DNA from: Polyangia bacterium
Lineage (GTDB): Bacteria > Myxococcota_A > Polyangia > Fen-1088
NCBI GenBank assembly: GCA_036268875.1
Contig: DATATI010000083.1
Span: 1-64,000, forward strand
Reading direction: 5' to 3'
DNA: 64,000 bases
Shown: piece after piece, positions 30,411 to 51,225 of the stretch
Layout: every line of letters starts with the position of its first letter
How positions within the stretch are numbered: the stretch's first letter is position 1
Made by a program: the position numbers and the translations under genes
Notes under the pieces: model-generated
The model's database searches: none
The model's input: the letters and a program-made list of their open reading frames with translations, nothing else
What the model was told of the DNA's origin: nothing

Positions 30411-32264
30411 GTGGAGGCTATGGAGCAAGCGCGGATCCCCGATCGGTACAAGCTCCTCCAGGAGGTAGGACAAGGAGGCATGGCGATCGTGTATCGAGCG
30501 TCTGACAGCACGCTCAAGCGCGAGGTGGCGATCAAGATCCTGCACCAGCATTTGTCGGCGGAGCCCGAATCGAAAGCGCGCCTGGAACGCGAGGCGCAAG
30601 CGGTGGCGAAGCTGCGCCACGAGAACATTCTGGAGATCTTCGACTACTCGGGCACCGATTCGCATAGCTCGTACATCGTTACGGAGTTCATCGACGGACC
30701 GACGCTGAAGCAGTGGCTGAACGACCACGCCATCGCCCATCCGGAAGTAGCGGCGCTGATCGCCGCCGAAGTGGGCGGCGCCCTGGTGCACGCCCACGGT
30801 GCCGGCATCATCCACCGCGACATCAAGCCCGAGAACGTGATGATCCGAAAAGATGGGCTGCTGAAGCTAATGGACTTTGGCATCGCCCAGGTGGTCGACC
30901 TGCAGCGCATGACCGTGACCGGACAACTGCTGGGATCGCCGGCGTACATGGCGCCAGAGCTTATCGAAGGCAAGCCGCTCGACTTTCGCACCGACGTGTT
31001 TTCGATCGGGATCATGCTGTACCAGCTGGCCACGGGTCGCCTGCCGTTTTCGGGGAAGAACCCGCACGAGGTCTTGCGCCGCATCGGTGAGGGGCGCTTT
31101 CCCGATCCGCGCACCATCAACCGGCAGATAGGCGACGGCCTCAACCGCATCATCGCGCACGCCCTGGCCCGCAACCCCGACGATCGCTACGCCACCGTCG
31201 GGTTGTTGACCGCCGATCTGGCCGAATATCTGGGTGACGCCGGCCTCACCGACGTGCGGTCCGAGCTGCGGGCGTATTTTGCCGATCCGGCCGCCTTCGA
31301 ACGCACCCTGCCCGATCGCATGGCCGGCGCGCTGGTTGTCGCCGCTGATCGACAGCTTGAGGAAGGGCGCTCGGCACGGGCGATGGAATTGTGGAACCGT
31401 GTGCTGGCCTTCAATCCACAGCACCCCGCCGTGTTGACGGCGCTAAAGCGCCTGGAGGGCCGCACCCGACTCAAGCACGCCGCCTTGGTCACCGCCATCG
31501 TGGGCGGCATCGCCGGAATGATCTGGGGCATCGCCCGCGTGCAGCCGGCGCCCGAGCCGCGACCAGCGCCGCCCATCGCCGCGTCGCCGACGCCGACCCC
31601 GACCCCGACGCCAAGCCTTGCCGAGAAAGCCGGCGCTACGCCGGTGGCGGCGCCGACGCCCCCGCCGCCCGTCGCCGCCGAAAGACGACCTGAGCCGCAT
31701 CCCCGACCCATGCATGTCGGTCTCCCGGCAAAAGCGCCGGCAAACTCCGCGGAAGAAGCGACGGCGGCCGCCGGCGGCACCCGCACCTTTGTCCTTGGCC
31801 CGACGCCTCAGAACGTGGACGTTTACCTCGATGGTCAGCGGCAGTTCGCTTACGACCCCGACCACCAGAGCTTGTCCGTCCCGTGGACCGGCAACCATGT
31901 GATCGAATTCCGCAGCCCCTCTGATTGTTGCTTCGTCGAGAGGATCGAGGTCGGCCCCGACCGCCCCGCACCGCCCGACAACGTCCTTGCTCGCCGGTTG
32001 AAGTGGCGCCCGGCGCGCTTGCTGATCACCACTGATCCGCCGCTGCCCAACGCGCGCATCATGATCAAAGACCTGGTCCACGGCGGCAAGGCCACGCCCG
32101 CGGCGGCCGGCGAGGACGTGGCGGTACCATTTTTGGCCACCGACGAGCCCAGCAAAGAGATCGAAGTCGGGGTCGAGACCGGAGACAGCTTCACGTCCGA
32201 TCGGGTGACGGTGCGAGCCGGGCAGCGCCTGACCCACGTGGTGAAAGTCAGGGCCGGCAACTAG
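30411..32264 (+). CDS. Ser/Thr protein kinase with C-terminal extracytoplasmic region
   Basis: 617 residues from GTG 30411 (an ATG at 30420 is possible). The Hanks-type kinase domain spans about 12-275: GQGGMAIVYRA, AIKIL, HRDIKPENVMI, MDFGIAQ, GSPAYMAPEL. A single transmembrane helix lies near 357-376, followed by a Pro/Thr-rich linker and a beta-rich domain (ALLITTDPPLPNARI-like) resembling PEGA folds. This is the standard layout of a receptor-like bacterial kinase with the sensor part outside the membrane. It is followed with a 1-base overlap by a TPR membrane protein and then an FHA-containing sigma-54 activator, a possible phosphorylation target. Confidence 0.92.
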   Translation: MEAMEQARIPDRYKLLQEVGQGGMAIVYRASDSTLKREVAIKILHQHLSAEPESKARLEREAQAVAKLRHENILEIFDYSGTDSHSSYIVTEFIDGPTLKQWLNDHAIAHPEVAALIAAEVGGALVHAHGAGIIHRDIKPENVMIRKDGLLKLMDFGIAQVVDLQRMTVTGQLLGSPAYMAPELIEGKPLDFRTDVFSIGIMLYQLATGRLPFSGKNPHEVLRRIGEGRFPDPRTINRQIGDGLNRIIAHALARNPDDRYATVGLLTADLAEYLGDAGLTDVRSELRAYFADPAAFERTLPDRMAGALVVAADRQLEEGRSARAMELWNRVLAFNPQHPAVLTALKRLEGRTRLKHAALVTAIVGGIAGMIWGIARVQPAPEPRPAPPIAASPTPTPTPTPSLAEKAGATPVAAPTPPPPVAAERRPEPHPRPMHVGLPAKAPANSAEEATAAAGGTRTFVLGPTPQNVDVYLDGQRQFAYDPDHQSLSVPWTGNHVIEFRSPSDCCFVERIEVGPDRPAPPDNVLARRLKWRPARLLITTDPPLPNARIMIKDLVHGGKATPAAAGEDVAVPFLATDEPSKEIEVGVETGDSFTSDRVTVRAGQRLTHVVKVRAGN

Positions 32265-33202
32265 TGTCGTTCGCTGTTTTGGTCCTTTCGGCGCTGATGG
32301 CTCTGGCGCCGCCGTCGCAAGAGTTCGACCGCGGCCGCGTCGCCTTCGGCCGCGGCGAATACCAGCGGGCGATCCAGATTCTAAAACCGCTGCTCTATCC
32401 CGACGTGCGGCTCGAGACCGAGGGCGAGGTGGTGCAGGCACACCGCATGCTGGGCGTGGCCAACCTGTTCGAAAGCCGCCCCGCCGACGCCAAATCCGAG
32501 TTTCGTAAGCTCCTGGAGCTCCGTCCAGACTATCGGTTCGATCCGCTGCTGGATCCGCCGCGGGTGGTGGATTTCTTCAATGGCGTCCTCAAGGACGAAG
32601 AAGAGGAGATCGCCACCCTCGAGGCCAAGCGCCGGAAGCAAGAGGCCGAGCTGGCCGCGCAGCGCCGCGAGGAAGCCGAGCGCCTGCGCGTCGCCAGCGC
32701 CAAGGTCGTGTTGTACGAACGCCATTCCTACCTGATGAACTTCGTACCGTTCGGGGCGGGGCAATTTCAAAACGGTCAGCGCCGCAAAGGGTGGTTGTTC
32801 GCCAGCGCCGAGGCTGGATTGGGGGCCATTTCGGTTTCTGCCTTTGTGGTCAACTTCGCCTACTACGGCGTGCGGCCGCAGCGGCACTGCCTGACCCCGC
32901 AGAACACCGACGTGGGCGGGCTGTCGACGCCGTGTCCGATGCCCGACGTCGACCACTCGCAGGAGGACCTGTCACGCGATCTTCTGCGCGTTCAACTGGC
33001 CAGCGGCGCGCTGTTCTTCGCCGCCGCCATCTGGGGCGCTGTCGACGCCATCCGCCACTATCAAGAGCGCGAGCTGCTGGAGGGCGACGCCATCCCGGCA
33101 GGCACCGGCCCCGCCGCTGCCAGACCGCAGGCAGCCCGCTTGCGCCTCGACCCGGGAATTCCCTCCGCACCCCTGGGCTTTGGGCTCGCGGGAGCGTTTT
33201 AA
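32264..33202 (+). CDS. Exported TPR/coiled-coil protein with two membrane helices
   Basis: 312 residues from GTG 32264, whose G is the last base of the kinase stop codon. An N-terminal signal (LVLSALMALAPPSQ) precedes TPR-like helices (FGRGEYQRAIQILKPLL, AKSEFRKLLELRPDY). A Glu/Arg-rich coiled coil (about 108-148) and two hydrophobic segments (about 185-210 and 245-265) follow. It resembles the unnamed membrane partners often found beside myxobacterial kinases. Function unknown; the overlap implies expression in fixed ratio with the kinase. Confidence 0.78.
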   Translation: MSFAVLVLSALMALAPPSQEFDRGRVAFGRGEYQRAIQILKPLLYPDVRLETEGEVVQAHRMLGVANLFESRPADAKSEFRKLLELRPDYRFDPLLDPPRVVDFFNGVLKDEEEEIATLEAKRRKQEAELAAQRREEAERLRVASAKVVLYERHSYLMNFVPFGAGQFQNGQRRKGWLFASAEAGLGAISVSAFVVNFAYYGVRPQRHCLTPQNTDVGGLSTPCPMPDVDHSQEDLSRDLLRVQLASGALFFAAAIWGAVDAIRHYQERELLEGDAIPAGTGPAAARPQAARLRLDPGIPSAPLGFGLAGAF

Positions 33203-33224
33203 CCAGGAGAAAGACGAGAGTCAC

Positions 33225-35060
33225 ATGGCGACGCTACGCATGCAGATGCCCGGCAAGGGCGTGAAGGTCTATCATATTTACAAAAAAATTACATCGCTTG
33301 GCCGCAGCGAAGAAGCGGACATCACCCTCCCCGACCCGCTGCTGGCCGAGAGCCACGCCCACATTCACTTTGACGGGCGCGACTTCAACATCGCCACCAC
33401 CGACCGCGATGCCGAGCTGTACGTCAACGGCCGCAAGCGCAACAAGCACCGGTTGACCCACGAGGATCGCATCCGCCTGGGGTTCATCGAGCTCGAGTTC
33501 TCGCTTTACGACGAGCCGGTCACCGACGAGTCGGCGGCCCGCACCATGGCCGAGCTGAACTCGTACAAGAAGCTGCTCGAGTTCTCGCAGAAACTCATGG
33601 CCAGCTACGAGCTGCCCACGCTGCTGGAACAGCTCCTCGACGTGATGATCCAGGTCAGCAACGCCGACAAGGGCTTCCTGGTGCTGATGGAATCGGGCGA
33701 GCCGGTGGTGAAGGTGGCGCGCAACCTCCGCCGCGAGACCATCAGCGACGCCGTCAGCCAGCTGTCCGATTCCATCCTGGCCAGGGTGGTGAAAAGCCGG
33801 AAGGCGCTGATCATCAGCGATGCGCTGTCGGACAGCGAGTTCAAAAATTCGCTGTCGGTGGTGAATCTGAAACTGACCTCGGTGATGTGCGTGCCGCTCT
33901 TGGAACGCGGGAACATGCTGGGGATCATCTACGTAGGCAACGACAACGTGGCCCAGCTGTTCGAGGAGACGCACCTGGAAGTGCTGACCATCTTTGCTTC
34001 GCAGGCGTCGCTGTTGATCCGCAATGCCTTGCTGGTGAACGAACTGCAACTGGATAACCGGTCGCTGCAGGAACGGATGGAGCGCATGCGGTTTGGCGAG
34101 ATTCTGGGTTCGTCGCCGCCCATGCAGGAGGTGTTTCGCAAGGTGCAGAAGGTGGCAGCGACGGACATCTCCGTGCTGGTCACCGGTGAGACCGGCACCG
34201 GCAAGGAGCTCATCGCCCGCGAGCTGCACAACCGCTCGACCCGCGCCAAGGGGCCCTTCGTCACCATCAACTGCGGCGCCATCCCGGAGAACCTGCTGGA
34301 GTCGGAGTTGTTCGGCCATGTCCGCGGCGCCTTCACCGGCGCGGTCAGCAACAAGCTTGGCCGCTTTCAGGCCGCCGACCGCGGCACCCTGTTCCTGGAC
34401 GAGATCGGCGAGATGCCGCTGTCCTTGCAGGTGAAGATCCTGCGCGCGTTGCAAGAGCGAGTGGTGGTGCGCGTGGGCGACACCAACGCCGAGCCGATCG
34501 ACATCCGCATCATCGCCGCCACCAACCGCGACCTGGAAGCAGAGATCAAGACCGGACGTTTTCGCGAGGATCTCTACTACCGTTTGAACGTCGTCCACCT
34601 GCACCTGCCGCCGCTGCGCGATCGCGGCGACGACATCGTGGTGCTGGCCCGCTACATGGTCGGGCGCTACTCGCCGGAATACGGCGGCAAGGTCCGCGGC
34701 CTCACCCCGAACGCCATCGCCGCCATCAAACGCCACCGCTGGCCCGGCAATATTCGCGAGCTGGAAAACCGGGTAAAAAAAGCCGTGGTTCTGGCCGACA
34801 AGGCGCTGCTTGGTCCCGAAGATCTGGATCTTTTGCCCGACGATCTGCCGCCGATCTTGCCTTTGCTGGAAGCGAAGGAAAAATTTCAGCGCGACTATAT
34901 CAACGAGGTGCTGCTGCTGAACGCCGGCAACCGCACCAAGACCGCCCGCGACCTAGGCGTCGATCCGCGTACCATCTTCCGCCACCTCGAAAAAGAAGAA
35001 GGCGGCGATGGCGCCCCCGATCCCGAGCCGTCGCCCGCGACGGCGAAGGAGCCGCTGTAG
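33225..35060 (+). CDS. FHA-GAF sigma-54 dependent transcriptional activator
   Basis: 611 residues from ATG 33225. Domains in order: FHA (about 5-100, SLGRSEEADITLPDPLLAES and ELYVNGRK), GAF (about 115-275), AAA+ (about 290-525) with Walker A GETGTGKE, sigma-54 contact loop GAFTGA, and LFLDEIGEM, then a Fis-type HTH (NRTKTARDLGVDPRTIFRHL). FHA binds phospho-Thr, so it is probably switched by a Ser/Thr kinase such as the one encoded two genes upstream rather than by a two-component system. FHA-containing activators are typical of Myxococcus. It implies sigma-54 promoters as targets; none was identified here. Confidence 0.94.
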   Translation: MATLRMQMPGKGVKVYHIYKKITSLGRSEEADITLPDPLLAESHAHIHFDGRDFNIATTDRDAELYVNGRKRNKHRLTHEDRIRLGFIELEFSLYDEPVTDESAARTMAELNSYKKLLEFSQKLMASYELPTLLEQLLDVMIQVSNADKGFLVLMESGEPVVKVARNLRRETISDAVSQLSDSILARVVKSRKALIISDALSDSEFKNSLSVVNLKLTSVMCVPLLERGNMLGIIYVGNDNVAQLFEETHLEVLTIFASQASLLIRNALLVNELQLDNRSLQERMERMRFGEILGSSPPMQEVFRKVQKVAATDISVLVTGETGTGKELIARELHNRSTRAKGPFVTINCGAIPENLLESELFGHVRGAFTGAVSNKLGRFQAADRGTLFLDEIGEMPLSLQVKILRALQERVVVRVGDTNAEPIDIRIIAATNRDLEAEIKTGRFREDLYYRLNVVHLHLPPLRDRGDDIVVLARYMVGRYSPEYGGKVRGLTPNAIAAIKRHRWPGNIRELENRVKKAVVLADKALLGPEDLDLLPDDLPPILPLLEAKEKFQRDYINEVLLLNAGNRTKTARDLGVDPRTIFRHLEKEEGGDGAPDPEPSPATAKEPL

Positions 35061-39860: not shown

Positions 39861-41684
39861 ATGATCAAGCTGACGATCACCGAAAAAGGGGGCGAACCCC
39901 GATCCTTGACGTTCGACAAAGACGAAGTGTCAATCGGCCGCGTCTCCGGCAATGACATCGTCCTGCCCAAAGGCAACATCTCGAAGCGACACTCGCGATT
40001 GATTATCAAAGACGGGACATTCGAACTGATCGATCTGAAGAGCACCAACGGCACTTATCTGAACGGCCGCAAGATCGTCGACAACGCCACCGTCGGCGGC
40101 TCGGATCGCATTCAGGTGGGCGACTTTCTGATCACCTTGGAGGGCGAAGGCGACGATAGCGACGGGCTGCGTGCCGGACAATCCAGCGCGGCGCGCGCCC
40201 TGCCGGTGCCACCACCGCCGCCACCGCCGGCCCGCGGCGGCTCGGGCTTGTCGGGACTGCCAGCGTTGCCCGACATCGGGGCCGACGACGACGTGGGCGA
40301 CGAAGGCTATGGCACCAAGTCGCGGTCGGGCAGAGTGCCCATTCCACCGCCACCACCGCCGCCACGACGAAGCACGGCGCCTACAGCTCCGCTGGGGCTG
40401 GAGGACGATGGCGTGGACATCGGCGGGGACATGTCGCCTCCCTCACCGGCCGACGTTGCGTCGGCGGGCGATGAGCTCAGCGCCGCAAGCGGGCCGGCGC
40501 TGTTCGAAGGGCCGCGCAACGCCGCCTACGACGATGCCAGCCGGCCGATGTCCAGCGACCTGATCGATTCATTGGCTGAAGCCGGGGTCGCCGAAGGGGA
40601 AGCGGCAAGCCCCGATCTCTCCGTCGACGGGGGAATGACCGGGCCAGTTTCGGAGCCCGCACCGAATGCGGAAGCCGAGCCGATCGATCAACTGGACGCG
40701 CTGGTCGCTGACGCCACGGTCACCCAGATCATCATCGGCGGACCCAATAGCACGCTCGTCGAGCGAAACGGGAGACTGGAGCCGATCGACGGTGGACTGG
40801 GGGATCCCAACGCCGTAGCCGAATCGTTGTGGCGGCTGGCGAACACCGCGTTGCCGCCGCCGCCGCCCGACAACCCGGTGGTAGACGTCCGCCTCGCCGA
40901 CGGCACGCGCATCGCCGCGATCTTTCCTCCGGCCGCCGTGGCCGGTGTCTGCGGTTCGATCCGTAAGCCGGCGCTGCCGGTGCATTCGCTGGCCGAACTG
41001 GCCGCGACCGGCGGTCTTAGCAAAGAGGCGCAGACGGTTATCGAAGCGGGGCTGGCGGCGCAGCGAAACCTGCTGATCACCGGCGACCCTGGTTCCGTCT
41101 CGATCTTGCTGAGCGCGGTCGCCGCCGCGATTCCCGGTGGGCGGCGCGTGGTTTCGTTGGGTGCCGGCGCTGGCCAGCCTGGCGCGGGCTGGACCGAGCT
41201 TGCGCCCGTCGGGGATCTGGCTGGTCTCATCCGCGTGGCTACGGCGTTGCGAGCCGACCACCTGCTGGTCGGAGAAATCCTTGGCGTCGAGCTGCTGGAT
41301 CTGCTGCTGGCGGCGACGCATGGGCAAGAGGGAATCATCCTTGGTCTCAGCGCGCGCTCGGCCGGTGAAGCCATGGCCCGGTTGGAAGCACTGGCGGGGC
41401 AGGTGCCAGGCGCCCACAGCGTGGCGGCGCTGGCCAACAGCACGCTGGATCTGGTGCTGCACGTGACCGCGCTGACCGACGGTGGCTTGCGCGTCACGGA
41501 GATCGCCGAGGTGAAGATGGACGCCAGCAACCGCCTGACGGCCGACCCGGTGATGTCGTGGCGCAGCGAGGGCTCGCGCCGGGGCGCCGTCGGCAAGATG
41601 CAAATTCTCGGCGTGTCTTCGCGTCTGGCGGCGGCGATGGCGGGCGGAGGCGGCCCCCTGCCCTCGAACTTGACCCGCAAGTGA
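39861..41684 (+). CDS. FHA domain fused to a degenerate CpaF/VirB11-like ATPase
   Basis: 607 residues. An N-terminal FHA domain (about 1-95: SIGRVSGNDIVLPKGNISKR, LKSTNGTYLNGR) is followed by a Pro/Asp-rich linker (about 100-270) and a domain that aligns by pattern with type II/IV secretion ATPases (CpaF): VTQIIIGGPNSTLVERNGRL, the ADHLLVGEILGVELLDLL region and GQEGIILGLSARSAGEAMAR. The catalytic sites are lost: the Walker A position reads GDPGSVSI (408-415) instead of GxxGSGKT, and the RGGE and HANS positions are LGVE and SARS. I infer a pseudo-ATPase acting as a phospho-Thr-responsive scaffold, perhaps on a Tad/type IV pilus machine not seen in this window. Confidence 0.8.
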   Translation: MIKLTITEKGGEPRSLTFDKDEVSIGRVSGNDIVLPKGNISKRHSRLIIKDGTFELIDLKSTNGTYLNGRKIVDNATVGGSDRIQVGDFLITLEGEGDDSDGLRAGQSSAARALPVPPPPPPPARGGSGLSGLPALPDIGADDDVGDEGYGTKSRSGRVPIPPPPPPPRRSTAPTAPLGLEDDGVDIGGDMSPPSPADVASAGDELSAASGPALFEGPRNAAYDDASRPMSSDLIDSLAEAGVAEGEAASPDLSVDGGMTGPVSEPAPNAEAEPIDQLDALVADATVTQIIIGGPNSTLVERNGRLEPIDGGLGDPNAVAESLWRLANTALPPPPPDNPVVDVRLADGTRIAAIFPPAAVAGVCGSIRKPALPVHSLAELAATGGLSKEAQTVIEAGLAAQRNLLITGDPGSVSILLSAVAAAIPGGRRVVSLGAGAGQPGAGWTELAPVGDLAGLIRVATALRADHLLVGEILGVELLDLLLAATHGQEGIILGLSARSAGEAMARLEALAGQVPGAHSVAALANSTLDLVLHVTALTDGGLRVTEIAEVKMDASNRLTADPVMSWRSEGSRRGAVGKMQILGVSSRLAAAMAGGGGPLPSNLTRK

Positions 41685-41721: not shown

Positions 41722-42807
41722 ATGTTCTTCGACAAGTTTCGTCAGGCGCAGTCACGACTGCCGACGGGCCTGATTCGCGTCGGACCGCCCGCCAAGAAGT
41801 CCGCCCTTGCCGCCGCCGATCGCGCCTTGCCATCGCCGCTGCCCGAAGAGCTGCGATCGTTCTTGGTTTCGTTTGACGGCGCCGATCTGTTTCACGGCAG
41901 CGTCGCCCTGGGTGGGGTCGGTAACGACGCCGACCCGTCGCTGCTGACCCTAAACGCCGACCCGACCGTGCAGGGGGACGATCTGATTTTCGCCGAGGCC
42001 GAGTTGGGGGATCGGTTCGCGCTGGACCAGAGAGGTCGCGTGTGGCGCCTGCGGGCTGGATCAGACGAGCGGGTTCTGGCCGGGTCGGCCTTCGGCAAAT
42101 GGTTGGACGCGGTGGTGGCGCGGGAACAGATCCTTTACGACAAGGAAGGCGAGTTCAACGCCGACGCCTTCGAGCCCGATGGCGAGGAGGTGACGCCGCA
42201 GACGGCTCGACGCCAGGCCGAACGCGCCCTGCGCCAGGATCCCGGCTCGGCGGAGGCGCACCATGACCTGGGCACGGCGTTGCGGCGGCTGGGACGGCAC
42301 CGGGAGGCGACGCAAGCGCTGGCGGCGGCGACCGCACTGGACCCGAGCAATCCATGGCCGTGGTTCGACCTTGGACGTCTATTACTGACGGAGGTCCAGG
42401 ACGCCCCGGCGGCGGCCACGGCGTTCTCCGCGGCCGCGGCGCACGAGACTGGCCTTTCGGCCGCGCGCCTTTGCGCCTGGGTGGCCCGCGCGGCGGAACA
42501 GGCCGGCGATCGCCCTCAGCTTGAACAGGCGCGGCGCGTGGCCATGGCACGGGACGCCGGCATTGAAGACGATCTTCGCCGCGCCGTCGACGCCGCCGAA
42601 CGCGACGCCGATGCGCCCGCCATGGATGAGGCGCGTGCGCTGCTGCGCGCGCTGACCGGGCAGCCAGTGCCAACGCCGCGCCGACGGCTGCCCGTGGTCA
42701 CCGACAAAGGCTCAGAGCACGCAGCAGCCCCATCCAGACAACCGGCCGTCCGCTCCGACGCCGCCAGCAAACTGGCCAAAACTCGACGCCGCAAACCCGC
42801 TCGCTAG
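41722..42807 (+). CDS. SUKH (SMI1/KNR4)-like protein with TPR repeats
   Basis: 361 residues. Residues about 28-145 show the SUKH pattern (LPSPLPEELRSFLVSFDGAD, LIFAEAELGDRFALDQRGRV, AGSAFGKWLDAVV). Residues about 160-290 form TPRs (AEAHHDLGTALRRLGRHREA). The C-terminus is basic and disordered. SUKH proteins are best known as immunity proteins against toxins, but fused to TPRs in this setting an adaptor role is as likely. It is 37 bases downstream of the FHA/CpaF-like gene and probably co-transcribed. Confidence 0.75.
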   Translation: MFFDKFRQAQSRLPTGLIRVGPPAKKSALAAADRALPSPLPEELRSFLVSFDGADLFHGSVALGGVGNDADPSLLTLNADPTVQGDDLIFAEAELGDRFALDQRGRVWRLRAGSDERVLAGSAFGKWLDAVVAREQILYDKEGEFNADAFEPDGEEVTPQTARRQAERALRQDPGSAEAHHDLGTALRRLGRHREATQALAAATALDPSNPWPWFDLGRLLLTEVQDAPAAATAFSAAAAHETGLSAARLCAWVARAAEQAGDRPQLEQARRVAMARDAGIEDDLRRAVDAAERDADAPAMDEARALLRALTGQPVPTPRRRLPVVTDKGSEHAAAPSRQPAVRSDAASKLAKTRRRKPAR

Positions 42808-45232: not shown

Positions 45233-46711
45233 TCAAGGGACCGACCGGTCAACCACTGCCATCACCTGGCCCGCTTGATCCCGCCCTTTCAAGACTGCCG
45301 CCAAACGATGGGTCCCGGGCGGAATTACTATATTTATAGTGGCTTCCGCCGAATCGTTAAAGGATTGGCTGGCAATTGAGGCGCGCACGCCGCGTCTATC
45401 CTCGGCATAGATTAGTATTTGCGCGTCGCGCAACGAGCCCCGAACACCGGCCGCCTTGGCCGTCACGCTGGTTCCGTTCATCGCCAGCGTCAGGTCGACC
45501 CGGAAGAGGTGATTGATAAGACCCGCCGCGTAAGCCCCGATCTCAGGCAACAAAAGCCGAGCGCTGTCGGAGTAGACCGCGGCGTTCAAAAAAAATCGGA
45601 CCCGGCCCGGCACCCGCTCGTAAGCCATCAAGCGGCGCTTGGGCAGCGCGCCAGGACCGTCTGCGGTCTCCACATATTGAACCCGACCCATCTCATGTAG
45701 TTCGAGCCGCGGAATATTCGGCAGACCGTAAGGCAGCGAATCCCGCGCTTGCATCAGTACGTCACGGCTGTTGGTGTCGCGGTCCACGATCGCGTCTTCC
45801 GGCAAGCTGCCGGGCGAAAAGAAACGTCGCTGGGTTCGGTCAGCCAACCCCTGGCTGTCAGGCGCCGAGATGAATGCCACCACATTCGGACGGTCAACCG
45901 GCGCTCCGGGTGCGGGCACGCCGCTGCGGCCATATGTCTCGGCGACGTAACGCTCGAAGGCCGAGCTACGGTCGAATGGGCTGCCGTTGCCACCGCTCAG
46001 ATAGGCCTCGCGGAAATCGTTTCGAACGTGCGCCGGCTCGCCCGCGTCCTCTAGAATGCCCAGCGTCCCGCCCAGTGCCAGCAGGGCCCGGGCCAGAGCC
46101 GTCGACCGCGCGGCCGGCGCCGCCGCCGTCACCGATTGTTCGAGTTGGGCGTAAAAGGCGACCAGCCCACCGTCGTTCGCAGGCGAGACCAACCATTCCG
46201 TGGAGGGCATGCCGGAGAAATCAAAGCTAGTGCCAGTGGCCAGGCCACGCGGGCTGCCGCCAGCGTCTAGAACCAAACGCACCGAGTGGACTATTTCGGC
46301 AGCGCTTCCCCCCTGCTGCAGGCCAACCTTGCGACTGGGGTCGAAGAAGGTGTTGCGCGCCCGATCGCCCGGCGTTCCCGCCAGCACAGCGCCGGCCACC
46401 AGCCAGCTCATGGCCGTCGCGCTGCCGTCGTCACCAGGACGGTAGCCTTGCGCGGGATCCAGCGCTGCCAGCCGTTCGCGTAGCTCGCGTGCTTGCGCGG
46501 CTGGCACCAAATGCGGATCCAGCGTGACGGTCTCGAAGAGACCCAGCGGTCTCCCGAGGGCCCTGGCCAGGACATGATTCAACGTCGAAGCCAGAACCGC
46601 CCTCTCGGTGAGACCGGCATGGGTGGTCGCGGGGTCGTACGCGCGGGCGGCGCCGCTTGCTCCAAACGCCACCGCGATAGCCGCCGCCAGTGCGGTCCTG
46701 GTGCGCGTCAC
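45233..46711 (-). CDS. Exported zinc-dependent phospholipase C/P1-nuclease-like protein
   Basis: 492 residues from GTG 46711, which overlaps the stop of the preceding lipoprotein gene (GTGA). Signal peptide TRTRTALAAAIAVAFGASGAARA. The mature start YDPATTHAGLTERAV and the segment LGGTLGILEDAGEPAHVRND carry histidines and acids spaced as in the zinc-dependent phospholipase C/S1-P1 nuclease fold. The C-terminal ~130 residues are beta-rich (INIVIPPGTHRLAAVLKG). Substrate unknown. The family call is by motif resemblance. Confidence 0.7.
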   Translation of the reverse strand: MTRTRTALAAAIAVAFGASGAARAYDPATTHAGLTERAVLASTLNHVLARALGRPLGLFETVTLDPHLVPAAQARELRERLAALDPAQGYRPGDDGSATAMSWLVAGAVLAGTPGDRARNTFFDPSRKVGLQQGGSAAEIVHSVRLVLDAGGSPRGLATGTSFDFSGMPSTEWLVSPANDGGLVAFYAQLEQSVTAAAPAARSTALARALLALGGTLGILEDAGEPAHVRNDFREAYLSGGNGSPFDRSSAFERYVAETYGRSGVPAPGAPVDRPNVVAFISAPDSQGLADRTQRRFFSPGSLPEDAIVDRDTNSRDVLMQARDSLPYGLPNIPRLELHEMGRVQYVETADGPGALPKRRLMAYERVPGRVRFFLNAAVYSDSARLLLPEIGAYAAGLINHLFRVDLTLAMNGTSVTAKAAGVRGSLRDAQILIYAEDRRGVRASIASQSFNDSAEATINIVIPPGTHRLAAVLKGRDQAGQVMAVVDRSVP

Positions 46712-47787
46712 GGCGAGCGCTCCTCGCTGCTCGAGGCCGGCAGATCGGACAGGCGCGATTCGACCAGCTTGGCCAGCTTCAACAATTGTCCGGGCTCCGG
46801 GCACTGTGAGGCGCCACAGGTCAGTGACACCACCACGCCCCGATCACGCACCAGAAAGGCCAGGCCGTTGATCTGGTCGGACTTGGCTCGCAACGACGAA
46901 TCGCCGATCTCGTCCTTGGCGACGGCGCCCGGCAATTCGCTCAAAAGCCGCTGGTATTGGACCTCGGCGGCAGCGGAGCCGAGCCGCCACACCCGCAGGC
47001 CGACGTCGTAACTTTCCGATTTGCCTTGTGCCTTGAAGTGCTGGCTGTCGTAAAACTCGGTGGTCGGCAGATCGGTCAGCTTGCCAGCCTCGAACTTTCC
47101 GACATAGCCGGTGACGCCGCGGATCTCGTCGTCGGTCAGCAAGTGCGAGATGTCCAAAGGCGTGGCGGTGGTGGCGACCGGCACCGCCGGTCCCTTCTCG
47201 GTCGTCACGGCGCGCTCGCCTTCCAACTCCAGGGCGGCGTTCTGAATCTCCCACGCCGCGGCCGCGCGTACCCGCGGCCCGCCACCCAGAAACACCACAT
47301 GTTCGCTGTGGCGATAGTTAGACTGCCACTTTTCCAAGCGCACGCGATTGCCGTGCTGGCTGAAATCGCGGCGCGCTTCGCGGTCGGGGAACCGCCGATC
47401 GCTGCGCCACGCGACGTGACCGCGGTGATAGACGATCAAGGTGAATCGGCGCACCCGGGTGGAAAGGCCCGACGGCAATTCGCCGATGCGGGGGATGGTG
47501 TAACGTCCGTCGGCTCCCGTTTCGGTGACGAACTCGGTCGCGCCGGCGGGGGCCTGGAAACCGATGCCGTGCTCGAACGCCCACGACGCCGCCACCAACA
47601 CGCCAGCGATCGGTCGGTCAGTGTCGGCATCAACAACGATCCCGTCGTATGGCCCCAGCAGATCAGCCGGCCTCACCGAATCGGGCCGTTCAGCGAAGGG
47701 CGCGCGTTCCACAAGCGGTCCGCAGCCAACAACGAACGCCATGGCCAAATTGACCGTGGCGACGGAAATTGTTAATGATCGAGGCAC
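46708..47787 (-). CDS. Lipoprotein with carboxypeptidase-regulatory-like domain
   Basis: 359 residues from GTG 47787, which gives PRSLTISVATVNLAMAFVVGC, a normal lipoprotein signal; a TTG at 47808 would add seven residues. Residues about 45-130 are a CarboxypepD_reg-like beta domain (YDGIVVDADTDRPIAGVLVA, TGADGRYTIPRIGELPSG). The C-terminal half (about 230-345) looks like a separate alpha/beta domain (AKSDQINGLAFLVRDRGVVV). No enzyme motif. It is coupled to the phospholipase-like gene. Confidence 0.75.
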   Translation of the reverse strand: MPRSLTISVATVNLAMAFVVGCGPLVERAPFAERPDSVRPADLLGPYDGIVVDADTDRPIAGVLVAASWAFEHGIGFQAPAGATEFVTETGADGRYTIPRIGELPSGLSTRVRRFTLIVYHRGHVAWRSDRRFPDREARRDFSQHGNRVRLEKWQSNYRHSEHVVFLGGGPRVRAAAAWEIQNAALELEGERAVTTEKGPAVPVATTATPLDISHLLTDDEIRGVTGYVGKFEAGKLTDLPTTEFYDSQHFKAQGKSESYDVGLRVWRLGSAAAEVQYQRLLSELPGAVAKDEIGDSSLRAKSDQINGLAFLVRDRGVVVSLTCGASQCPEPGQLLKLAKLVESRLSDLPASSSEERSP

Positions 47788-47872
47788 GTCGAATGGGTGA
47801 GGCCGCAAGCGGGAGCGGAAAGTCCGGCCCGCCTGTTATCAAAGGATTCCGCCGCTTGCAAACCCCTTCTAC

Positions 47873-48679
47873 ATGACCAAGTGCGGGCGGTGTGGAAACA
47901 GCAACGTTGGGCGGGTGGTCTTCTGCCAGTTTTGTGGGACTCGCCTGGCTCCCGATCGGTTGCCCGAACAGCCGTCGATCGAGGTCTCGATCGGCTCGGC
48001 GGCAGCGGCGCCGGCGCCGATACGCCCCGGATACGAGGCAGGCTTCCGGTTGACGGTGGTTCACCGCGATGGATCGGACGGCACGTCGTACAGCCTGCTC
48101 GGCGATCAGATCGATCTTGGGCGCAGTGAAGGCGATCTGCTGTTTGATGATCCGCACCTGGCCCCCCGGCACGCGCGCATCTCGGTCAGCCAGGGCGGTC
48201 GGGTGCTGTCGCCGCTGGAGACGCGCAACGGGGTCTATGTCCGCATCCGGGCCGCCTCCGAACTGGCTGACGGCGATCACTTCTTGCTGGGCAAGCAGGT
48301 GATGCGGTTCGAGGCGGTTCCTGAAATTGAGCGCAACCTGCGCCCGGCGGTCGAGCACGGGGTGGCGCTTTTTGGGACACCGACCCGTCCCGCGTGGTGT
48401 CGGTTGAGACAAGTGACCGCCGCCGGCGTTTCAAGAGATGTGTACTACGTCAGCCGTGGTGAAGTGGTGATCGGGCGCGAACAGGCGGACATTGTTTTCT
48501 CGGACGACGAGTTCATGTCCCGCCGCCACGCCCAGCTAAGCCTGCGGGGCGGACGGCCGCGCATCGAAGACCTGGGCAGCTCGAACGGGACGTTTCTCCG
48601 ACTGAGGCGGGCGCACAACCTGTCGGCGGGAGATCTCATCCGGATCGGCGACGAACTCTTGCGATTCGAGCCCGGATAA
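47873..48679 (+). CDS. Zinc-ribbon double FHA-domain protein
   Basis: 268 residues. An N-terminal zinc ribbon (CGRCGNSNVGRVVFCQFCG; C4, C7, C18, C21) is followed by two FHA domains: about 60-150 (DLGRSEGDLLFDDPHLAPRH) and about 185-268 (IGREQADIVFSDDEFMSRRH, then LGSSNGTFLRL). FHA domains bind phospho-Thr. It is followed by a PP2C phosphatase and a kinase with the same zinc-ribbon spacing, forming one signalling cassette; it is probably the phospho-dependent adaptor. Confidence 0.88.
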   Translation: MTKCGRCGNSNVGRVVFCQFCGTRLAPDRLPEQPSIEVSIGSAAAAPAPIRPGYEAGFRLTVVHRDGSDGTSYSLLGDQIDLGRSEGDLLFDDPHLAPRHARISVSQGGRVLSPLETRNGVYVRIRAASELADGDHFLLGKQVMRFEAVPEIERNLRPAVEHGVALFGTPTRPAWCRLRQVTAAGVSRDVYYVSRGEVVIGREQADIVFSDDEFMSRRHAQLSLRGGRPRIEDLGSSNGTFLRLRRAHNLSAGDLIRIGDELLRFEPG

Positions 48680-48722
48680 GGCGAAGTATACGAGAGCCAA
48701 TCCCCTCCCCAACGATCAATTG

Positions 48723-49904
48723 ATGCCAACAACCCCGGACATCCAGATCGAAGTCTTCGGCAAGACCGACGTCGGTCTCATCCGCGAGCACAACGAGGAC
48801 AATTTCCTCATTGCCGACGTCAGCGCCGGCATGCGCTCGAACAGCTTTGCGGCGCCGCAAACGCTGGCGCTGGGCGACAAAGGCGTCGCGCTGCTGGTCT
48901 GTGACGGCATGGGCGGCGCCGCTGCTGGCGAGGTGGCGGCGCAGATGGCCGTCGATTCGGTGTACGAAACTCTGGCCGCCGTTCCACCCATGACGCGCGA
49001 TGGGTTCGCTCGCGCCTTGCGCCGCGCCGTCGAGGTGGCCAACGAAGCCATCTTCATCCAATCGCGCGACAACCAGAGCGAGCGCGGAATGGGTACCACC
49101 TGCACCGTTGCCGCGCTGACTGACACCACCCTGGTGGTCGCGCAGATCGGCGATTCGCGCTGTTATGTCCTGAGGCAGGGCCGCCTGGCCCAGGTGACCA
49201 AGGATCAATCGCTGGCCTGGCAGCTGATCGAAGCCGGGGCGATGACCGCCGAGGAAGCCAAGGCGTTCGAGCACGCCAACATCATCCTGCAGGCGCTGGG
49301 GGTTCAGGATCAGGTCGAGGTGGTGCTGTCGCAGGTCGATCTACGCCAGGGCGACGTCATCCTGCTGTGTTCGGACGGCCTGCATGGCCCCGTGGCCGAC
49401 GAAGAGATCCTCGACGTGTTGACCACCGAGAGCGATCTCAAGCGCGCCGGCCAGGCGCTGATTCAAAAAGCGCTGGACCGCGACGGTCCGGACAACGTCA
49501 CGGTGGTGCTGGCTCGTTTCGGCGGCGCCGCCCTGCCCCCTCCGGGACCTGCTGACGTCGTCAGCTTCGTGGGCTACGACCCCGGACCCGATCCTGACAA
49601 CGAAGTACCGACGCCGATGGCCCCGCTGGCGCCGTCGGGCGGCGTGGCCACCGTGCAGGAACGGATTCCGCCGGAGCTTCTGCAGCAACAGGACGAGGTG
49701 GTGACCAAGGCCGACGGCGATCGGCGAAGCGCGATGGGCGACTTTGGTCAGCTCCCTGCCGCGGCGCCGGCCTCTCGCTCGATGCGATCGGTGGTGGCGT
49801 TGTTTTTCTTGGCCCTCATCGCCGCGGCGGTGGGCGGCATCTCGGTGATGAAGTGCGAGCGCGAACGCACCGCCACCGGTGAAATGCGCGGAGGCGGCCC
49901 GTAG
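48723..49904 (+). CDS. PP2C-family Ser/Thr phosphatase with C-terminal membrane helix
   Basis: 393 residues from ATG 48723. All PPM motifs are present: GLIREHNEDNF, VCDGMGGAAAG, MGTTCTVAAL, QIGDSRCYVLRQG, LCSDGLHGPV and GPDNVTVVLARF. A Pro-rich linker leads to one transmembrane helix (VVALFFLALIAAAVGGISV) near the end, so the catalytic domain faces the cytoplasm. It reverses phosphorylation by the Hanks-type kinase encoded 10 bases downstream. Confidence 0.93.
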   Translation: MPTTPDIQIEVFGKTDVGLIREHNEDNFLIADVSAGMRSNSFAAPQTLALGDKGVALLVCDGMGGAAAGEVAAQMAVDSVYETLAAVPPMTRDGFARALRRAVEVANEAIFIQSRDNQSERGMGTTCTVAALTDTTLVVAQIGDSRCYVLRQGRLAQVTKDQSLAWQLIEAGAMTAEEAKAFEHANIILQALGVQDQVEVVLSQVDLRQGDVILLCSDGLHGPVADEEILDVLTTESDLKRAGQALIQKALDRDGPDNVTVVLARFGGAALPPPGPADVVSFVGYDPGPDPDNEVPTPMAPLAPSGGVATVQERIPPELLQQQDEVVTKADGDRRSAMGDFGQLPAAAPASRSMRSVVALFFLALIAAAVGGISVMKCERERTATGEMRGGGP

Positions 49905-49914
49905 GTCTGGCGAC

Positions 49915-51225
49915 ATGGCCATCTGTCCAAACTGCGGAACGATGCTGGAGCACGATGCGCGCTTTTGCGGCGCCTGCGGCAAGCGCATCGAGCCCATCGC
50001 CGCCACCGCCATCGGCCTGCCGTCGCCGGTGATTCATCAGCCATCGGCACCGCTGGCCGCGCCAAAACCCGCTGCCGCCCTGGCGCCTTCGCACGCGCGC
50101 GACGAGCCGAACCCGGCGCTGGCGTCGACGGTGGTCGCTGAAGCGATGCCGATCGCGTCCGGACCTCACGGCGCGGCGGCGCCAGCGCGGGCAGCGGCGG
50201 CCATCCGCACGCCCGCGCAGTCCCCCGAACAGATGATCGGCCGCACCTTGAACAACCGTTACATCGTCGAGGCGAAGATCGGCGAGGGCGGTTTCGGTGC
50301 GGTCTTCCTCGGCAAGCAGATCGCCACCGGGCGCGAGGTGGCGCTGAAGATCCTGCACCCACACAACGTCAGCGATTCGACCATCGTGGCCCGTTTTCGG
50401 CGTGAGGCGGAAGCCTGTTCGAAGCTGCGCGATCCGCACACCGTCACCACCTACGACTTCGACGAGGCCGAGGACGGCACATTGTTCCTGGCCATGGAGC
50501 TTTTGCGGGGCCGCAGCTTGCATCTGCTGCAAAAAAGCGAAGGTCCGTTTCCGCCCAAGCGCGTGCTGGGCATCCTGGACCAGGTGGCGCAGTCGCTGGG
50601 CGAGGCCCACGCCAACGGCATCGTTCACCGCGACATGAAGCCGGAGAACGTGATCATCGAGCGGCGCGAAGAGCAGGATTACGTCAAGGTCCTGGATTTC
50701 GGCATCGCCAAGATGATCTCCGGCGATCGCGAGGTCCAGGCGTTGACCGCCGTCGGGCAGACGCTGGGCACGTTGGAGTTCATGTCGCCGGAGCAGCTGC
50801 GCGGGCAGACGCTGGACGGACGTTCGGACATCTACGCGCTGGGGATGATGGCGTACGAGATGCTGACCGGCGGGCTGCCCTTCAAGAACGCCAAGAGCCC
50901 GATCGAGATCATCAACTTCCATATGAAAGAGGCGCCGCCGCCACCGTCGGCGCTGCGGCCCGAGTTGGAGATCCCCGAGGCAGTCGACGAGGTCATACAA
51001 AAGATGGTGGCCAAATCGCGCGACGACCGCCACGCCAATGCGGAAGAGCTACGCGCCCACATCGCGCGGGCGCTGGGCCCGGCGCAGAAGCGAAAGAAAT
51101 CCGTCGCCAGCGTCAGCAGCCTGAGCATCGCCGGCCGAAGCCTTCCGCTGACCCTGCCGATGATCGCCGCCATCGCCGGCTCGCTGCTGGTGCTGGGCAT
51201 GTTGATCTGGCTGCTCAAGCGCTGA
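49915..51225 (+). CDS. Zinc-ribbon Ser/Thr protein kinase, tail-anchored
   Basis: 436 residues from ATG 49915. An N-terminal zinc ribbon (ICPNCGTMLEHDARFCGACG; C4, C7, C18, C21) and an Ala/Pro linker (to about 105) precede the kinase domain (about 115-375): GEGGFGAVFLG, ALKILHP, HRDMKPENVII, LDFGIAK, GTLEFMSPEQL. A C-terminal helix (LPMIAAIAGSLLVLGMLIWL) anchors it with almost nothing outside, so it does not sense external ligands by a periplasmic domain. Works with the PP2C and FHA proteins encoded just upstream. Confidence 0.93.
   Translation: MAICPNCGTMLEHDARFCGACGKRIEPIAATAIGLPSPVIHQPSAPLAAPKPAAALAPSHARDEPNPALASTVVAEAMPIASGPHGAAAPARAAAAIRTPAQSPEQMIGRTLNNRYIVEAKIGEGGFGAVFLGKQIATGREVALKILHPHNVSDSTIVARFRREAEACSKLRDPHTVTTYDFDEAEDGTLFLAMELLRGRSLHLLQKSEGPFPPKRVLGILDQVAQSLGEAHANGIVHRDMKPENVIIERREEQDYVKVLDFGIAKMISGDREVQALTAVGQTLGTLEFMSPEQLRGQTLDGRSDIYALGMMAYEMLTGGLPFKNAKSPIEIINFHMKEAPPPPSALRPELEIPEAVDEVIQKMVAKSRDDRHANAEELRAHIARALGPAQKRKKSVASVSSLSIAGRSLPLTLPMIAAIAGSLLVLGMLIWLLKR

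Follow-up and report, generated by a model that had tools for sequence, protein, structure and literature searches.

A conserved FHA–PP2C–kinase locus of Polyangia, likely a writer-eraser-reader module, with zinc ribbons on reader and kinase

Do a phospho-reader, a phosphatase and a kinase that are encoded side by side work as one module, and what do the zinc ribbons that begin two of them contribute? The question is raised by a 64,000-nucleotide stretch of DNA from a Polyangia bacterium (the window, contig C83 of a 95-contig, 6.15 Mb assembly), in which genes for a double-FHA protein, a PP2C phosphatase and a PknB-type Ser/Thr kinase (the trio) lie head to tail on the + strand with gaps of 43 bases (FHA/PP2C) and 10 bases (PP2C/kinase; Table 1). 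The FHA protein starts with MTKCGRCGNSNVGRVVFCQFCG and the kinase with MAICPNCGTMLEHDARFCGACG (ATG at 49915), and the C4-C7-C18-C21 spacing that the original prediction had given for both ribbons is exact in each. It had also placed the PP2C between the two and tethered it and the kinase to the membrane at their ends; the PP2C gene is indeed the middle one, and both proteins end in a single hydrophobic stretch (Kyte-Doolittle maxima over 19 residues, Table 1), such that both are predicted from hydropathy to be membrane-attached at the C-terminus. The gene order is conserved, the catalytic motifs of kinase and PP2C are intact, both carry predicted C-terminal anchors, and the FHA protein is a soluble protein with a ribbon, a linker and two FHA domains. 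The three proteins likely form one writer-eraser-reader module, and their conserved locus looks like a pared-down relative of a signalling locus known from Actinobacteria. The reading that we prefer, with a probability of about 0.57, is an inner-membrane module of the PstP/PknB/FHA kind that lacks PASTA domains and in which the ribbons would be phosphate-independent docking handles.

Conservation was judged from 59 loci fetched around the best FHA matches, one per genome, plus one paralogous locus of the own genome. The PP2C gene adjoins the FHA gene on the same strand in 56 of the 59, and the kinase gene lies within 6 kb in 27, comprising all 17 other loci of the same family and 10 outside it (a distant 82-bit kinase in locus L048 was left out of this count). 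The search for the trio in other genomes, which had been proposed as a check of its conservation, thus came out positive. In a separate count, the kinase is matched at 1e-75 in 59 of 192 genomes of the class, and in at least 45 of these, belonging to eight families, the best kinase match is no more than 6.5 kb from the best FHA match. In loci L071 and L072 the kinase gene is on the opposite strand yet still adjacent. The own genome has seven matches to the PP2C_2 model, and only one, the trio PP2C, has a kinase match no more than 20 kb away, a count limited by contig ends. The earlier interpretation is partly supported: that the trio is a conserved unit and has the only kinase-near PP2C speaks for it, and the reading of the ribbons as a matched pair is not supported. 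The records closest to the FHA protein, where named, are from Myxococcota and for the most part metagenome assemblies; two Polyangium isolates are included, as are Labilithrix, Sandaracinaceae and Kofleriaceae assemblies.

The kinase has VALK, HRDxKPEN and DFG all in place, and these are present in 27, 27 and 28, respectively, of 30 kinases, a set in which one copy is unlinked, one is paralogous and some are broken. The three threonines of the LTAxGQTxGT activation segment are invariant in 19 aligned kinases. The best PDB matches are to PknB (1.5e-53), and the nearest curated family is PknB_PASTA (NCBIfam NF033483; 302.5 bits), although its cut-off of 450 is not reached. Only two residues, Lys-Arg, follow the predicted transmembrane helix, so that the kinase has no sensor domain of its own. 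The PP2C, for which the ATG at 48723 was taken as start (TTG at 48720 is also possible), passes the NCBIfam Stp1/IreP model NF033484 (231.1 bits; cut-off 230). Its NED, DGMGG, GDSR and SDG motifs are kept in 55, 55, 57 and 55 of 57, and the GPDN pattern is matched in only 29 of 57.

The nearest curated family of the FHA protein is FhaB (Rv0019c; NCBIfam NF049868), with 86.7 bits against a cut-off of 125 that is not reached. In the structure model, a ribbon with a pLDDT (predicted local distance difference test) of about 90 is joined by a disordered linker (residues 29–54) to FHA1 (95–98) and FHA2 (90–98). The four ribbon cysteines and, in FHA2, G201 R202 E203, S216, H219 and N238 G239 are invariant in a 22-row alignment; in FHA1 the serine preceding RH is lost in the window protein. 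A Foldseek search with the model returned 24 matches at E up to 0.001, spanning 87 to 145 alignment columns, all to entries taken, in part from their titles, to have FHA domains; no double-FHA match was recognised among them.

The actinobacterial pstP locus has the order fhaA, fhaB, pstP, rodA, pbpA, pknA, pknB. As described in an excerpt of PMC6554272, FHA proteins, the transmembrane PP2C PstP and a PknB-type kinase stand together in this pstP-fha-pknB locus, and the trio shares this combination. It differs in that the trio kinase has neither PASTA nor any other extracytoplasmic domain, the FHA protein is doubled and ribboned, and the kinase is ribboned too. No rodA or pbpA was found by Pfam among 18 window proteins scanned between 29.0 and 57.6 kb, a set that does not cover every open reading frame there.

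The ribbons are the part of the trio for which several explanations have to be weighed. That of the kinase is above the Pfam cut-offs, both for Zn_ribbon_3 (Table 1) and for Zn_Ribbon_1 (27.6 bits against 25). In the 6.15 Mb genome a start codon (ATG or GTG) is followed by the C4-C7-C18-C21 pattern at five places, against none in a reversed control, and two of the five are the trio FHA and kinase genes. The Pfam ribbon model picks out 15 ribbon proteins in the own genome (E up to 0.05), six of them kinases (three with partial ribbons) and three of them FHA proteins; fewer than one of these nine would be predicted by chance (hypergeometric P 9e-12, calculated for about 91 kinase and 36 FHA proteins, grouped from 96 and 41 matches, and an assumed total of roughly 5300 genes). 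Among 139 ribbon hits (E up to 0.001) in 18 genomes of the family, tallied by place from their coordinates, 37 are in the trio locus, 54 in a second, tandem ribbon-FHA locus, and 48 elsewhere. The ribbon is therefore largely an accessory of phospho-signalling here and is not special to the FHA–kinase pair.

One further ribbon protein, at L101:319-1575, is neither a kinase nor an FHA protein; it has an N-terminal ribbon, a C-terminal hydrophobic helix and, by eye, a coiled coil between them.

A stronger version of the original suggestion is that kinase and reader pair directly because their ribbons bind one another or arose by duplication as a matched pair. The spacing is identical, and the linked kinase carries a ribbon, always a single one, in 26 of the 27 loci outside the window, the exception being a masked sequence. 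However, ribbons of this family usually have Cx2Cx10Cx2C spacing, which leaves an equal spacing with little weight of its own; it was rejected as evidence of pairing for this reason and because the non-cysteine residues do not match. Outside the cysteines the FHA and kinase ribbons of the window are 20% identical and the class means are 0.19–0.28, no higher than between other unrelated ribbons, whereas kinase ribbons share 0.40 among themselves. FHA and kinase ribbons from the same genome barely exceed shuffled pairs (0.272 against 0.251; P 0.038, n 25, kinship not controlled). The numbers do not match either: the FHA protein carries three ribbons in 34 of the 59 loci and two in 17, and of the others 6 have a single FHA ribbon and 2 have none (some copies with one or no ribbon are cut or masked); same-family FHA proteins mostly have two or one. 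The single ribbon of the window FHA protein is on average most like the first ribbon of three-ribbon relatives (0.33; middle 0.29, last 0.27) and the last of two-ribbon family members (0.34; first 0.21). Finally, the FHA ribbons are kept in 31 of 32 loci without a nearby kinase, or 26 of 27 if five with short downstream sequence are omitted. The ribbons were therefore not made as a pair, and direct pairing is very unlikely.

A second family of tandem ribbon–double-FHA proteins is found throughout Myxococcota (L094:13850-16100, in the own genome at C49:58.3-60.6 kb; L144–L184; L254–L313). A member protein has matches in 149 of 282 genomes of the phylum at 1e-20, some of which are trio-type FHA genes, and in the search for trio-type FHA genes the own genome's members of the family reach 4e-41. 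In 46 of 60 fetched loci of this family there is no kinase in the stretch, which again speaks against ribbons that pair. Where kinases do adjoin it, 5 of 11 are ribboned, by a rule relaxed to 8–14 residues between the cysteine pairs, compared with 2 of 30 background kinases (Fisher P 0.0096) and 6 of 91 in the own genome (P 0.0019); this comparison does not control for kinship, four of the six ribbonless adjacent kinases are from one family, and the background kinases are the best-scoring matches of eight genomes, one of which (L335) is itself beside a ribbon-FHA gene. Among the loci named above, the adjacent kinase is ribboned in L144, L167, L172 and L180 and unribboned in L154 and L182, and these kinases are not clearly nearer to the trio kinase than to other ribboned kinases. 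The excess, which pairing ribbons could also produce, hints weakly at a looser link between ribbon-FHA genes and ribboned kinases.

A precedent for what such ribbons may do is the archaellum module of Sulfolobus with ArnA, ArnB, the kinases ArnC and ArnD and the phosphatase PP2A, in which a Cx2Cx10Cx2C ribbon precedes the FHA domain of ArnA (excerpts of PMC12852372 and PMC6509490). According to an excerpt of the former, the ArnA ribbon (C21-C24-C35-C38) loosely holds unphosphorylated ArnB, and the FHA domain binds phosphorylated ArnB tightly (PMC12852372). The trio FHA protein has the same layout of N-terminal Cx2Cx10Cx2C ribbon, linker and FHA, and ArnA chains are the top solved sequences matched by the FHA alignment (profile match 6e-16). 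The Arn system differs in being archaeal and in the single FHA domain of ArnA, and PP2A is not a PP2C. By analogy with ArnA, we read the ribbons of the trio as docking handles that need no phosphate and whose most likely partners are other proteins, not one another. Both could dock on one third protein, a client or scaffold that unites writer and reader, as the original prediction had allowed; the predominance of kinases and FHA proteins among the ribbon proteins of the own genome, the ribboned kinases beside the second family and the ArnA precedent itself all fit such a common dock. No common partner gene was identified, however, and the two types of ribbon differ in sequence, which rather suggests different partners, and we consider a common dock doubtful.

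The ribbons might instead be structural or metal- or redox-sensing modules that dock nothing. PknG is a kinase with a rubredoxin-like domain, said to be a module of this sort, and a TPR domain, and the small Cys4 site N-terminal to the trio kinase is analogous in position. Up to three repeats of the ribbon stand before the FHA domains, though, and that of the window protein sits on a disordered linker; multivalent binding fits these features better than sensing, and this alternative is unlikely. The trio kinase also differs from the PknG of the PknG–GarA system in that its Pfam matches up to E 0.1 contain neither TPR nor a rubredoxin family.

Under the preferred reading of a membrane module with docking ribbons, the kinase would autophosphorylate the invariant threonines of its activation segment and then phosphorylate its clients. 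The canonical FHA2 domain would bind phosphothreonine on the kinase or a client, and the PP2C would reset the phosphate marks. Before any FHA binding, the ribbons, if they act as in ArnA–ArnB, would hold reader and kinase near their clients or scaffolds without phosphate.

Because neither kinase nor PP2C has a sensor domain, the signal may enter through UP1, a lipoprotein whose gene stands divergent to the trio, as it does in 34 of the 59 loci. In the UP1 model, a transthyretin-like domain is combined with a C-terminal one whose predicted fold resembles the extracellular sensor of PknH. In VIA-align searches with the modelled C-terminal domain the best matches are the corynebacterial protein 3v7b (Z 12.2, root-mean-square deviation 3.2, 126 aligned), the extracellular domain of PknH, 4esq (Z 12.1, 3.0, 130), and TiME (Z 12.0, 2.8, 130), and the next different protein has Z 8.9. 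By sequence UP1 matches nothing in the PDB up to E 5, and in Pfam it has mainly weak carboxypeptidase-regulatory-like matches. UP1 is a candidate input for the trio, a weaker proposal than the module itself. A broader and speculative scheme, to which we give little credence, is that of a split receptor-kinase module of Myxococcota in which UP1 would sense outside, the tail-anchored ribboned kinase and the PP2C would write and erase inside, the ribboned double-FHA adaptor would read, and ribbons across the phylum would be a shared phosphate-independent docking code that matches writer to reader.

Several observations weigh against the preferred reading. The FHA protein is matched at 1e-12 in 186 of 192 class genomes, a count that includes members of the second ribbon-FHA family, to which the weaker matches may belong. 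Linkage to the FHA gene was not demonstrated in 14 of the 59 kinase-bearing genomes, 10 of them counted as unlinked for having no FHA place among the matches listed. The fetched stretch has no such kinase in 32 of the 59 loci (five with 4 kb or less downstream), which means that linkage of the kinase and reader genes is not obligatory in the class. The FHA ribbon scores under its Pfam cut-off (Table 1). No vWA (ArnB-like) partner was found among the 18 scanned window proteins; the rest of the genome was not searched. UP1 is present in 24 of 25 judgeable loci with the kinase and in 9 of 26 without it, window included (Fisher 3.9e-6; 24/1/9/17), but this co-occurrence is not significant on the tree, which has only four and two changes and three usable independent pairs, and it was therefore dropped as independent support. 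The loci without the kinase, together with the roughly 91 kinase proteins of the own genome, would also suit a kinase that is a mere chance neighbour of the FHA–PP2C pair. The same kinase stands beside the pair in eight families, however, in changed orientation as well, and the other six PP2Cs of the own genome have no kinase near them, and chance is a most improbable explanation.

Table 1. Coordinates of the trio, its domains and the divergent UP1 gene in the window.
Feature	Coordinates	Strand	Evidence
Double-FHA phospho-reader with N-terminal zinc ribbon, 268 aa	47873..48679	+	Open reading frame; Pfam FHA 1.4e-24, two stretches
Zinc ribbon of FHA protein, C4-C7-C18-C21	47882..47935	+	Sequence; Zn_Ribbon_1 18.4 bits, cut-off 25
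FHA1	48116..48292	+	AP-RH in window instead of usual S-RH; NG retained
FHA2	48464..48649	+	Canonical GRE / SRRH / SSNGT in window
PP2C-type Ser/Thr phosphatase, Stp1/IreP (PstP) type	48723..49904	+	Pfam PP2C_2 8.9e-16; ATG 48723
Predicted C-terminal transmembrane helix of PP2C	49791..49847	+	Kyte-Doolittle maximum 2.64
Tail-anchored PknB-type Ser/Thr kinase with N-terminal zinc ribbon, 436 aa	49915..51225	+	Pfam Pkinase 2.4e-48; start ATG
Zinc ribbon of kinase, C4-C7-C18-C21	49924..49977	+	Zn_ribbon_3 28.1 bits, cut-off 27
Kinase domain	50260..51057	+	Activation segment LTAxGQTxGT; invariant T278, T283, T286
Predicted C-terminal transmembrane helix of kinase	51160..51216	+	Kyte-Doolittle maximum 2.48
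UP1, conserved divergent lipoprotein	46708..47808	-	24 relatives aligned; structure model

The protein encoded at 45233-46804 has no Pfam match, clusters with open reading frames beside the lipoprotein gene in 34 loci and by eye recalls a zinc-dependent phospholipase. An FHA protein with a sub-threshold match to type II/IV secretion ATPases is encoded at 39861-41684, with relatives upstream of the trio in 14 loci, and an SMI1/KNR4-TPR protein at 41722-42807, with relatives upstream of the trio, by eye, in at least six. At 30411-35060 the window has a further signalling cluster, made up of a kinase, a Pfam-less protein and an FHA-GAF-sigma54 activator. In eight loci without the trio kinase (L048, L050, L052, L056, L057, L060, L068 and L069) the gene next after the FHA–PP2C pair encodes an FHA protein with a transmembrane segment, whose periplasmic part is trypsin-like by eye and degenerate in places; a short gene of the FHA-transmembrane kind lies between PP2C and kinase in L051.

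Further known systems were compared. In Mycobacterium ulcerans the FHA protein MupFHA binds the kinase PknQ, an interaction in which docking and simulation implicate residues of the activation loop, and both come from the same plasmid region, a likeness to the trio (excerpt of PMC4238996). PknQ differs from the trio kinase in its extracellular FepB-like domain, and the excerpted text mentions no ribbons for PknQ–MupFHA (PMC4238996). The actinobacterial GAP1-N2 conflict systems were compared for their zinc-ribbon kinases beside PP2C and vWA genes; they are centred on GTPases and have vWA proteins, of which the scanned window proteins contain none. With the PpkA–PppA–Fha set of type VI secretion systems in mind, the trio FHA protein scores 41.5 bits with TagH/VI_FHA, and the cut-off of 120.25 is not reached. 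PADLOC matches the kinase to the kinase models of PD-T4-6 and others and matches the FHA protein and PP2C to nothing; the kinase matches were not taken as a sign of defence. No paper on the trio or its ribbons was found among the open-licence PMC matches listed.

In myxobacteria Ser/Thr kinases far outnumber phosphatases. A survey of three myxobacteria called the co-organisation of kinase and phosphatase genes extremely low, counted six kinase–PP2C co-organisations within five genes in S. cellulosum, and singled out the pkn4 region as the one kinase region with synteny among seven myxobacteria (PMC2887360). The parts of the trio are each ordinary, and the pairing of its ribbons is unsupported; what is noteworthy is that a locus with writer, eraser and reader is conserved in a group for which such linkage was reported as rare. 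Being conserved over several families, the trio is a useful entry point, and since the locus names reader, writer and eraser, their substrates, docking and signal are directly testable. With about 90 kinases present, a reader has to find its own, and the ribbons suggest a way for it to do so that can be tested.

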